A stretch of 64,000 bases of DNA, from the NCBI GenBank assembly GCA_020444175.1, contig JAHLLM010000008.1, positions 1 through 64,000 of the forward strand, written 5' to 3'. Below the pieces are notes generated by a model, which was not told the origin of the DNA, made no database searches, and worked only from the letters and a program-made list of their open reading frames with translations. The stretch's first letter is position 1. Each line of letters begins with the position of its first letter. The translations under genes and the position numbers were made by a program. The DNA comes from Desulfobulbaceae bacterium (GTDB taxonomy: Bacteria > Desulfobacterota > Desulfobulbia > Desulfobulbales > SURF-16). This document shows positions 6,943 to 63,605 of the stretch, in pieces.

Positions 6943-7043
6943 GGAATTGATATTGGAGCTAAATCAGCGTTATTCTATCTTTGCACTCCTGGATCAATAC
7001 GTGTTATCAATTTTCTGCCTGGCATGCCATAGGGTGAAAGATT

Positions 7044-8387
7044 ATGGATCAAACATATAAAGAGACATTTCGTCTCACCAATGAAGGGCAGTCCGTTTGG
7101 AGCCAGAATGATAGGAATATTCCTGTCTGGAAGAGGCCCTTACTGCAACTCGTCAGAATTTTTTTTATTGTCAGCCGCGCCCCTTTTAACAAAAAAATTC
7201 TCACCCAGGCTTCGGCTCTTTCTTTTACCTTTATTCTGTCGCTTATCCCGGTTCTGGCAATGATCTTTTCGATTGCAAAAGGATTTGGCATTCAGGACAG
7301 GGTTCAGCCCCTGTTGCTGCAAAAAGCGGTGGGGGGTGAAATTGCTTCAGATCTTATCCCGAAAATCATTGAATACGTCAACAATACCAATGTTGCCGCA
7401 CTTGGCTCTATTGGCTTGGTTTTTATTATTTATACAACGATTTCAATGCTTGGCCAGATAGAGGGTTCTTTCAACCAGATATGGTTTATAGACAAACCGC
7501 GCACTTTAGTAAGAAAAGCCAGTGATTATCTGTCCATCATGGTCATCGGGCCGATTTTTCTTGCCGTCACCATGGGTCTGCCGACAACCCTTCACAGTAA
7601 CGCAATGACGCAAAAATTGATGTCCATCGGCTTATTTGCCGGTGCATTCAAACTTTTTTTCTTTTTTCTGCCCTGGTTATCCAGCATACTCATTCTGACC
7701 CTGGTTTTTATTATCATTCCAAATACTCGAGTTCGTTTTCTGCCTGCCTTCTTTTCAGCCATACTCGCGGGCAGCCTCTGGCAGCTTACTCAGTTTCTTT
7801 TTATTGAATTTCAAATCGGGGTGGCCAGATACAATGCCATATACGGTACCTTTGCCTCGGTGCCGATTTTTATGATCTGGCTGCAGGTGAGCTGGATGAT
7901 TGTCCTTTTCGGTGGTGTTCTGAGCTTTGCTTTCCAGAATGTGAAGAAATTTCATCCACTTGAATATGAAAAAAATATTTCCTATGCCGGCAAAGAAAAG
8001 CTGAGCTTGGCTGTTCTGCTGAGTATCTGCTGGAATTTCGACAAGGGGAAAGGGCCTGTGAGCCCATCTGAAATCAGTGATCAGCTCGGGATTTCAGATA
8101 ATTTTGTACTGGCCGGTATTGCACGTTTGCTCAAGGTTGGGAAAATTCTCCCTGTGAGTGAGGGAGACAGTGAACGATACGTTCCCTTCATGCCCGGCTC
8201 TGAAATCAAAATTTCCGAATTTTTGAGTGATATCAAGGTGCCACAAACCGGTGGTCTTGAATTTAAGGATGCCCGTATAAACGAGACAATTCATGAAATT
8301 CTGACCCGCAATCAGAAGGCCCTGAATCGGAATCTAGGGGAGCATGGCATGAATGAGCATCCCTGGGAGAATGAAGAAGGCGATTAA
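7044..8387 (+). CDS. YihY/BrkB family inner-membrane protein
   Basis: 447 residues. The first 300 hold about six hydrophobic helices with family motifs (LTQASALSFTFILSLIPVLA near residue 55; YNAIYGTFASVPIFMIWLQVSW near residue 275). The family was once mis-annotated as RNase BN and is better described as a polytopic membrane protein, possibly a transporter. The last ~120 residues are soluble and look like a winged-helix region (VSPSEISDQLGISDNFVLAGIARLLKVGKI), as in the long variants of the family. The 3' end overlaps the convergent aminotransferase gene by four bases. Confidence 0.9.
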   Translation: MDQTYKETFRLTNEGQSVWSQNDRNIPVWKRPLLQLVRIFFIVSRAPFNKKILTQASALSFTFILSLIPVLAMIFSIAKGFGIQDRVQPLLLQKAVGGEIASDLIPKIIEYVNNTNVAALGSIGLVFIIYTTISMLGQIEGSFNQIWFIDKPRTLVRKASDYLSIMVIGPIFLAVTMGLPTTLHSNAMTQKLMSIGLFAGAFKLFFFFLPWLSSILILTLVFIIIPNTRVRFLPAFFSAILAGSLWQLTQFLFIEFQIGVARYNAIYGTFASVPIFMIWLQVSWMIVLFGGVLSFAFQNVKKFHPLEYEKNISYAGKEKLSLAVLLSICWNFDKGKGPVSPSEISDQLGISDNFVLAGIARLLKVGKILPVSEGDSERYVPFMPGSEIKISEFLSDIKVPQTGGLEFKDARINETIHEILTRNQKALNRNLGEHGMNEHPWENEEGD

Positions 8388-60049: not shown

Positions 60050-60517
60050 CTACTGCATTATCTGTTCTATTCCGGCAATCAGTTCACTGGGCTTCATTTT
60101 GCCTCGTATGCGCTTGGTAATTTTGCCTTCTCGGGATAAAAAAATAATTTCAGGAATGGTTCGAACCCTGAGTTTTCTGGCCATACTTTTTGCCTTCCCG
60201 ACCGGGAATGTGAGATGTGACTGCTCGGCGAATTTTTTGATCGCATCACTTTGACTCATATAAAATGATCCAAGGACGAGAAGCCCTTTGTCTTTGTATA
60301 ACATATAGGCCTTTTGCAATTCGGGAGCGGTAACGTTACACGTGCCTCACAAGGTCGAGCCCACCGATATCACCACCGGTGTACCCCGTAAGCTGTTGGC
60401 CGTATAGTTTTTTCCTTCAAGATCCTTGAAACGAAAATCTGGCTGACAAGGCTTTGCCTGGGCAAGACTACTGACAAAAAGAAGCAGCAGAAGGAGCAGT
60501 GTGGTTTTCTTTTTCAT
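60050..60517 (-). CDS. Probable selenoprotein: thioredoxin-fold exported protein with UGTC active site
   Basis: From the ATG at 60517 (GAGG eight bases upstream) the frame encodes a signal peptide (KKKTTLLLLLLLFVSSLAQA) and a TlpA/thioredoxin-like domain: FRFKDLEGKNYTANSLRG, VVISVGSTL, then TGA at 60349-60347, GTC, NVTAPELQKAYMLYKDKG, LLVLGSFYMSQ and the cis-Pro segment RVRTIPEIIFLSREGK, ending at TAA 60050. The TGA falls exactly at the first active-site Cys, with Cys60 as its partner (UxxC). The frame is otherwise intact (155 sense codons including position 57). A selenocysteine reading is likely; a nonsense mutation in a Cys codon is the alternative. It is probably a periplasmic thiol oxidoreductase. 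Confidence 0.75.
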
Positions 60518-60549
60518 TTGGGTTCCTCATTTGGTTGCAGAAATTATTT

Positions 60550-60689: not shown

Positions 60690-61520
60690 CTACTCTTGCG
60701 GGAAAAGATGCACATCCCGCTGGGGAAAGGGAATGGTGATGCCGCCGTTCTTCAGTGCTTTGTGGATGGCCAGGTTTACCTTGTATTTGAGCTGGAAATA
60801 CTGCTTGGTCGGCACCCAGAATCTCACTCCGATTGAAATGGCGGAATCAGCAAATTCTTCAATACCTATCTGCGGGCTGGGCTCTTTGGAAATATCGTCA
60901 ATGCCGGCCAGTGTTTTTTGAATCAGATCTATTGCTTTTTCCGGGTCATCACTATAGTTGATGCCTACAGAGGCCTCCACAATGCGGTTGCCAAAGGAGT
61001 TGAGGGTAATTTCTCCGACAATATGTTTGTTTGGAATAATTATTTCTTCGTCGTCTTCGGTGGTGAGGATTGTTGCCGCAAGGCGTATTTCTTCGACCAC
61101 GCCGTTTACTCCTTTCACCGTGATGGTATTGCCTACCACAAAGGGACGGGAGAGAATAATGGCAAGACCGGCTCCGTAGTTGGAAAGCGGTCCCTGCAGG
61201 GCAAAACTGCTGCCAAAGGCAAGGGCTCCGAGAGCGGCTATGAATGGAGCAATAGTGATGCCGAATTTGCCAATGGCAATGATGATAACAAAGGTGAGAA
61301 CCAGAATTCTTGCAACATTGCCGATAAAGCGGGAAAGGGTTACGTCAATATTATGTTTTTCACAAAGCCTGGTTGTCAGAACCGACAACCAGGAGGCCAC
61401 TTTGAAGCCGATAATAAGGATGATAAAGGCGCCCAGGATCTGAAAACTGTAATTGATCAGAAACTCGGCAACAACCTTAAAAATGTCTTCAAGGACAGCA
61501 AGTTCTTTTTGCAGCTCCAT
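60690..61520 (-). CDS. MscS-family mechanosensitive channel (small form)
   Basis: 276 residues with three N-terminal helices; the pore helix reads PFIAALGALAFGSSFALQGP (Gly/Ala-rich, about residues 90-110), followed by the beta domain LSRPFVVGNTITVKGVNGVV, EEIIIPNKHIVGEI and the C-terminal FPQRDVHLFPQE. This is the E. coli MscS layout in full. It opens under membrane tension to release solutes after hypo-osmotic shock. A second MscS gene lies 2 kb upstream on the same strand, with the OmpA-like lipoprotein between. Confidence 0.93.
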   Translation of the reverse strand: MELQKELAVLEDIFKVVAEFLINYSFQILGAFIILIIGFKVASWLSVLTTRLCEKHNIDVTLSRFIGNVARILVLTFVIIIAIGKFGITIAPFIAALGALAFGSSFALQGPLSNYGAGLAIILSRPFVVGNTITVKGVNGVVEEIRLAATILTTEDDEEIIIPNKHIVGEITLNSFGNRIVEASVGINYSDDPEKAIDLIQKTLAGIDDISKEPSPQIGIEEFADSAISIGVRFWVPTKQYFQLKYKVNLAIHKALKNGGITIPFPQRDVHLFPQE

Positions 61521-61595: not shown

Positions 61596-62741
61596 TTACT
61601 TCTTTACTGATGTGGAAATCGCGGCTTCAACGCGGCGGTTTTTCTGGCGGCCGCTGTCGGTTTTATTCGTTGCTATGGGGCGGGAATAGCCGAAGCCCTT
61701 GGTGCTGAGTCGGGATGGGGCGATATTAAATTTTGAGACCAGGTATTTTTTTACGCTTTTTGCCCGACGCTTGGAAAGGCCCATATTGTATTCTTTGGTG
61801 CCGTAATTATCTGTGTGTCCTTCGAGTACGGCATTGGTCTGCGGGTATTTTTTGAGGAAAGCGCCGAATTCATCAAGCTGGTCAGCTTCGCGTGGCCGTA
61901 TTGTTGTTTTGTCAAAATCAAATTCGACAAGCAGGTTGATTGTTACTGTTTCATATTGGGCCGGAGGTGCTGCAGGAACGGTTGTCGGTGCCACGACAGG
62001 CTTAGGCTTGGCAACAGCCTGCTCTTTTTGCAGAAAGACCTTTTCAACGAAATCAGCCATCCCCTGCCCTGTTGCCACAGCCGCTTCGGTTGTGGCAAAT
62101 CCGCACTGGCCTGCCTGGGCAATGTCCTCAAGATTTTTTTTGCCCATGGGGTTGTCGCCGATCAAAATTGTATAAATACAGATTCTGTCTCCATATGCTT
62201 TTTTAAGTCTTTCCGCTGCCGCAACAGGTGATTGTTTCTTGGTGTCGATTCCGTCGCTGACAAGAATAACGGCAATTTTGCCGCTTGACTCTTGCAGGTC
62301 ACCAACAGCATCCTCAAGGGGCTGGGCAAGCGGGGTCAGGCCGCCTACCTTGACCTTGTTGACGGCATCGCGCAGACCATCCTGCGTGTATGTGGTCATT
62401 CCGTACACGAGTTTGCTGTCCTTCATGTTTGGCCCCTGGGTGGGGCCAAAGACGCGTAATCCAGCCTGTACATCCTGCAGGCCGGTCTGAATATTAAGGA
62501 CGGGGAGCGTCTCGTTCATGTGCAGGATGACTTCTTTGGCACGCACACATTTTTGTTTGTTTTGGTACTTGTCAAACATGGAGGAGGAGGCATCGTGGAG
62601 AATCAGGAAATTATCAATTTTTTTCTTGTACCCCTTACCGGAAAAATCAAAGGCCTGAAACGGCGTTTCCGCTACTTTGGGGGCACAGGCGGCAAGCAGC
62701 CCGATGATGGCAAGAATCCAGACAAATTGGAATTTTTTCAT
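61596..62741 (-). CDS. Lipoprotein with VWA and OmpA domains
   Basis: About 381 residues: lipobox VWILAIIGLLAACAPK, then a von Willebrand A domain (NFLILHDASSSMFDKYQNKQ with the DxSxS metal site, VILVSDGIDTKKQSP), a Pro/Val linker and a C-terminal OmpA peptidoglycan-binding domain (VEFDFDKTTIRPREADQLDE, AVLEGHTDNYGTKEYNMGLS, RAKSVKKYLV). The start at 62741 follows GGAGG with good spacing. It would tie the outer membrane to the cell wall while the VWA part binds a partner, possibly a channel or envelope protein next door. Confidence 0.93.
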   Translation of the reverse strand: MKKFQFVWILAIIGLLAACAPKVAETPFQAFDFSGKGYKKKIDNFLILHDASSSMFDKYQNKQKCVRAKEVILHMNETLPVLNIQTGLQDVQAGLRVFGPTQGPNMKDSKLVYGMTTYTQDGLRDAVNKVKVGGLTPLAQPLEDAVGDLQESSGKIAVILVSDGIDTKKQSPVAAAERLKKAYGDRICIYTILIGDNPMGKKNLEDIAQAGQCGFATTEAAVATGQGMADFVEKVFLQKEQAVAKPKPVVAPTTVPAAPPAQYETVTINLLVEFDFDKTTIRPREADQLDEFGAFLKKYPQTNAVLEGHTDNYGTKEYNMGLSKRRAKSVKKYLVSKFNIAPSRLSTKGFGYSRPIATNKTDSGRQKNRRVEAAISTSVKK

Positions 62742-62786
62742 TTTCAACCTCCTTAGGTCATTTAATTTCAAAAATGTAATGAGAAA

Positions 62787-63605
62787 TTACTCTTTTTCCT
62801 GATACAAATGCACATCTCTTTGGGGATACGGAATGCTAATATCTTGCTCGTCAAACGTTCTTTTGACTTTTTCAGTAACTTCAAAAAAGACATTCCAGTA
62901 GTCATCTGTATTAACCCAGGGGCGCACAACAAAGTTGACGCTGCTGTCGGCCAGTTCGGAAAGAGCCACTGTTGGGGCGGGATCCTTGAGGACACGCGGG
63001 TCAGAAGCAATTATGTCATTTAAAAGGCCTTTTGCCTTGCCGATATCATCGTCATAACTGATACCGAAAACCATATCCACCCTGCGGGTAGGGTTGTCAT
63101 TGATATTGGTTATCACGTCAGAGGTAATGCTGCTGTTCGGAATGATTACTTTTTTGTTGTCCAGGGAGTTGATCGTGGTGTGAAAAATGTTGATGGCGGC
63201 TATGCGGCCGGTGACTCCCACAGTTGTAACCAGGTCCCCGAGTTTAAAGGGCCGCAGGAAAATTATCATGACTCCTGAGGCTATATTTGACAAAGAATCC
63301 TTGAGGGCAAGGCCAATGGCAAGACCGGCAGCACCTATTATTGTCAGAAAGGAGGTTGTGTTGATACCAAGCTGTCCGGCGGCTGCGACAATGACCAGCA
63401 CCAGCAAGGTATAATAGACGACGTTTTCCAGAAAGTGAATCAGGGTGGCTTCAACCTTATTTTTCTCAAGGAGCCTGACAACAAGACGGGAAACATGGCC
63501 GGCAAGCCATTTCCCGATTATGAAAACAACAAGAGCAGCAATTAATTTCATTGAATAGGTCGTTAACCAATAGGAGATCGTGTCATACATTTTTTCAATA
63601 TCCAT
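62787..63605 (-). CDS. MscS-family mechanosensitive channel (second)
   Basis: 272 residues with the same architecture as the other MscS gene: three helices, pore helix FLTIIGAAGLAIGLALKDSL (about 85-105), beta domain LRPFKLGDLVTTVGVTGRI, NKKVIIPNSSITSD and the ending YPQRDVHLYQEKE. The two proteins are clearly related but diverged. It lies 46 bases upstream of the OmpA-like gene on the same strand, so the two are probably co-transcribed, perhaps together with the other MscS gene. Confidence 0.93.
   Translation of the reverse strand: MDIEKMYDTISYWLTTYSMKLIAALVVFIIGKWLAGHVSRLVVRLLEKNKVEATLIHFLENVVYYTLLVLVIVAAAGQLGINTTSFLTIIGAAGLAIGLALKDSLSNIASGVMIIFLRPFKLGDLVTTVGVTGRIAAINIFHTTINSLDNKKVIIPNSSITSDVITNINDNPTRRVDMVFGISYDDDIGKAKGLLNDIIASDPRVLKDPAPTVALSELADSSVNFVVRPWVNTDDYWNVFFEVTEKVKRTFDEQDISIPYPQRDVHLYQEKE

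Follow-up and report, generated by a model that had tools for sequence, protein, structure and literature searches.

ResA of Bacillus, an exported protein with a CxxC motif, serves cytochrome c maturation. Published lists of selenoproteins include several UxxC proteins, namely, a Prx-like thiol:disulfide oxidoreductase (PF00578, UxxC/UxxU), a Redoxin family protein (PF08534), and a thiol-disulfide isomerase-like protein (cd02966) (PMC13188914, PMC9312934, PMC1088965). A further system, Tso, is a three-selenoprotein operon that was described recently and of which a brief account is available (PMC13188914). Genes of the UGA-containing selenoprotein class are commonly truncated by gene callers. 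Here, we analyzed such a gene in a stretch of 64,000 nucleotides from a Desulfobulbaceae bacterium, referred to as the window. Its product is very likely an exported ResA/TlpA-like thiol-disulfide oxidoreductase in which the first active-site residue is selenocysteine (U57-G-T-C60), and the gene, despite the stop codon that seems to interrupt it, is almost certainly intact, with its UGA read as selenocysteine (Sec).

Read directly from the sequence, the gene (60517-60050, minus strand) is a single frame of 155 codons when TGA is translated as Sec, and homologues align across residues 1-155. The frame starts with ATG (60517-60515), which is preceded by a Shine-Dalgarno-like GAGGA (60524-60528), and ends with TAG (60052-60050). 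Inspection by eye revealed a probable signal peptide covering residues 1-21 (60455-60517; MKKKTTLLLLLLLFVSSLAQA, boundary AQA/KPC), and the N terminus is hydrophobic in the homologues too. The otherwise intact and conserved frame contains a single in-frame TGA (60349-60347), which the translation, the homologue alignments, and the ResA alignment place as Sec57 at the first Cys of the CxxC motif. The resolving Cys60 of the resulting UGTC motif is at positions 60338-60340, and the cis-Pro position, P122 of TIPE, is at 60152-60154, in an alignment column that is nearly invariant and matches LPT of ResA. Among the Pfam families, the 155-residue protein matched Redoxin (2.8e-13) and AhpC-TSA (1.8e-12), both across the TGA, as well as Thioredoxin (4.2e-7). 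Sequence and Pfam matches thus bear out the sequence-only reading of this DNA, which had described one frame with a ribosome site, a signal peptide, a TlpA-type domain, and a cis-Pro motif. As it had also foreseen, the only open reading frame under translation table 11 is the 89-residue tail (60050-60319), so that standard gene calling reduces the gene to a fragment that lacks the active site. The presence of this open reading frame would fit termination at the UGA, with the two halves as separate products and the tail starting at TTG 60319. However, a ribosome site is not evident 5' of this TTG, termination would split the thioredoxin fold at its active site, and the Cys homologues are one continuous protein, which makes two products very improbable.

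The assignment to the ResA-like proteins is based on a profile of 17 aligned sequences. Its best matches among solved structures were ResA entries (4nmu, 6e-26 over positions 21-152; 1st9, 1e-20), and both its Sec column and its cis-Pro were aligned to their counterparts in ResA, the former to the first Cys of CxxC. ResA and StoA were also the closest NCBIfam models for the window protein, both below their cut-offs; with 64.6 bits against a curated cut-off of 170 for the ResA model NF002854, the protein is ResA-like rather than ResA. The confidence of an AlphaFold model computed from the single sequence was low (pLDDT of 49), too low for the model to be used. The top Pfam matches, Redoxin and AhpC-TSA, together with a weak match to GSHPx, would also suit a true selenoprotein that acts as a peroxiredoxin-like peroxidase and not as a disulfide reductase. 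We consider this unlikely, since the motif, UxxC together with a cis-Pro, matches the arrangement in ResA and is neither TxxU nor UxxT, and since ResA provides the best solved relatives and, with StoA, the best NCBIfam models.

The genome from which the window derives (5.4 Mb, estimated to be 100% complete) contains selA, selB (367.8 bits; NCBIfam cut-off, 242), a tRNA-Sec (67.2 bits; Rfam cut-off, 47), and selD (379 bits), which itself has an in-frame TGA within its GUAAK motif. In three formate dehydrogenase-like genes of the same genome, the ARI/LUH motif contains an in-frame TGA at the usual Sec position. Because the machinery is complete and selD and these three genes carry TGA, this genome very probably uses UGA for Sec. 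The search for selA, selB, selC, and selD that the sequence-only reading had proposed thus retrieved all four, and the lack of Sec machinery that it had regarded as incompatible with its claim does not apply. Several other frames of this genome also contain TGA. On another contig (L123, G000:C3:12000-28000), a TsoA selenoprotein frame (6981-8380; LULAEC, one TGA) is fused in frame to an ArsR-type domain, and the next gene is DsrE-like with an in-frame TGA (UGVC). A frame of the AhpC/TSA type whose RHLGULPC segment includes an in-frame TGA (L124, G000:C50:82789-83088, minus strand) is likely a further selenoprotein.

Homologues were searched in 58 near relatives, 258 genomes of the class, and 395 genomes of the phylum. 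Fifteen homologues of the subfamily have exactly one TGA, in every case at codon 57 of the window gene, and three close homologues are of the Cys type, with TGT (L062 and L071) or TGC (L068) at this codon; more distant relatives have TGC. All sequences of the 17-member alignment (17/17) have either U or C at position 57 and C at position 60. Since 15 homologues share the TGA and the Cys homologues have TGT or TGC in its place, its location is not due to chance. That the Cys codons are one base away could be explained by a sequencing or assembly error in the third base, but 15 further genes from other genomes would each have had to acquire such an error on their own, and we regard it as extremely improbable. 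The proteins of L062 (TGT) and L063 (TGA) are 90% identical overall, and their amino acid identity rises to 94% after the active-site codon. For the segment 3' of this codon, dN was 0.032 and dS 0.475 (dN/dS of about 0.07), as compared to a dN of 0.070 and a dS of 0.430 for the 5' segment. The segment past codon 57 is thus under purifying selection, which argues that the frame is not decaying. The sequence-only reading had advised inspecting position 57 in homologues and had considered its claim untenable if these lacked Cys or Sec and the frame was in decay; the close homologues all have one of the two residues, and selection maintains the frame. Together with the Sec machinery, the 15 Sec and 3 Cys homologues and this selection support its proposal of a UxxC oxidoreductase with Sec at the TGA.

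On the phylogenetic tree, the Sec/Cys trait needs three changes, which is consistent with a single gain of Sec followed by two apparent Sec-to-Cys reversions. The nearest homologue of the window gene shares 53% identity. Other families of the order have homologues, whereas the sampled genomes of the window's own family, including a congener, had no subfamily-level match at the search threshold; the distribution is therefore patchy, which may reflect loss or transfer. A search of the genome contigs with the single protein retrieved only a distant Bartonella match. This patchiness, the solitary position of the gene, and a SECIS element that is not demonstrable would be compatible with a decaying pseudogene in which the Cys codon (TGT/TGC) had mutated to TGA. 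Three observations stand against it: (i) the TGA is at the same codon in 15 diverged homologues, (ii) the gene has no other stop or frameshift, and (iii) the segment 3' of the codon is more conserved than that 5' of it. A pseudogene is accordingly very unlikely.

As a SECIS element, we considered a hairpin that directly follows the UGA and has a small apical loop about 16 to 37 nucleotides away. A candidate can be drawn at positions 60297-60340 (minus strand; stem TGTAACGT/ATGTTATA, apical loop of 14 nucleotides), without statistical support. The loop of the best hairpin in the window gene starts 21 nucleotides past the UGA, and its stability of -5.5 kcal/mol was equaled or exceeded in 54 of 100 synonymous shuffles. 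We ran the same test on six other Sec genes of this genome (FDH1, FDH2, FDH3, SelD, TsoA, and DsrE). It detected FDH2, FDH3, and SelD (1, 2, and 5 of 100 shuffles as stable, respectively), DsrE was borderline, and FDH1 (68/100) and TsoA (82/100) were missed, so that the negative result for the window gene has limited weight. RNAalifold found no consensus structure among 14 TGA sequences, including that of the window gene, and an Rfam scan around the gene returned chance-level matches only. A hairpin, GCUCCUGAGUUACAGAGAGC, is common to several homologues and absent from the window gene. The caution of the sequence-only reading as to SECIS support was hence well placed, given the shuffles and the RNAalifold result.

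The frame, the Sec machinery, the conservation of Sec or Cys, the purifying selection past the codon, the homology to ResA, and a single DsbD_TM gene in the genome were all computed here; we infer the actual insertion of Sec, the periplasmic location, the reductase direction, and the electron donor. The SelA, SelB, tRNA-Sec, and SelD of this genome would insert Sec at the UGA. In the exported protein, the Sec selenolate would attack a substrate disulfide or another oxidized sulfur species, Cys60 would resolve the mixed selenosulfide, and a membrane transporter of the DsbD/CcdA type may then re-reduce the protein.

The window gene stands alone; by eye, its neighbors were named as an MscS-type channel gene on one side and a PAS protein gene on the other. 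On the same strand, the window contains two genes for MscS-type mechanosensitive channels (60690-61520 and 62787-63605, by eye), and the gene between them (61596-62771, by eye) encodes a VWA/OmpA-like protein. The resemblance to the Tso system lies in the homologous loci and in the genome. An ArsR-type gene is near 8 of the 18 homologous loci (L064, L065, L066, L067, L073, L053, L060, and L061); in L066 and L067, a gene for a small WGG-rich membrane protein is located between it and the homologue. DUF5714 genes, which are related to the selenoprotein MbdU, occur at 5 of the 18 loci; the one tested scored 359 bits against the MbdU cut-off of 600. An intact TsoA-like frame with LULAEC and its own TGA is present at 3 of the 18, and a TsoA-like C-terminal part at others. 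Matches to the TsoR and TsoA models were below the cut-offs in the homologue loci tested, and TsoA exceeded its cut-off in the window's genome, on a contig other than that of the window gene. In contrast to a Tso gene, the window gene is kept at a locus separate from TsoA, no tso genes adjoin it in the window, and its protein exceeded the cut-off of none of the Tso models. Because 8 of 18 loci are near an ArsR-type (TsoR-like) gene and several have TsoA-like or MbdU-like genes, it is conceivable, though rather doubtful, that the gene belongs to a separate subfamily of ResA-like proteins with Sec, which would serve as exported thiol partners of the Tso/MbdU selenoprotein system. We take the Tso-like neighbors as a lead on the function, and on the poorly understood Tso system itself, not as proof.

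Comparison with the described proteins supports a placement among known redox selenoproteins. (i) ResA of Bacillus (PDB 1st9 and 4nmu) is homologous over the whole domain, its CxxC aligns with UxxC, and it shares the cis-Pro and the export. It differs in having Cys at the Sec position and WC before the motif, where the window protein has LU, and Thr63 of the latter is at the position of a Glu in the ResA chain. (ii) The model NF041054 (ResA-like WAxxUGC motif protein) likewise describes a ResA-like protein containing Sec; however, the window protein, at 25.8 bits, is below its cut-off of 300, and the motif of the model is UGC, as opposed to UGTC. (iii) The listed UxxC selenoproteins share the domain class, the UxxC motif, Sec in place of the first Cys, and widespread Cys homologues. 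The PF00578, PF08534, and cd02966 proteins are likened to the window gene by their description in these lists, and it may belong to one of their subfamilies. Since reviews already list UxxC redoxin/TlpA-like selenoproteins, the window gene adds to a known selenoprotein class, and readthrough of its UGA extends the known UxxC redoxin selenoproteins by a coherent subfamily, which comprises at least 16 sequences with Sec and has apparently reverted from Sec to Cys twice.
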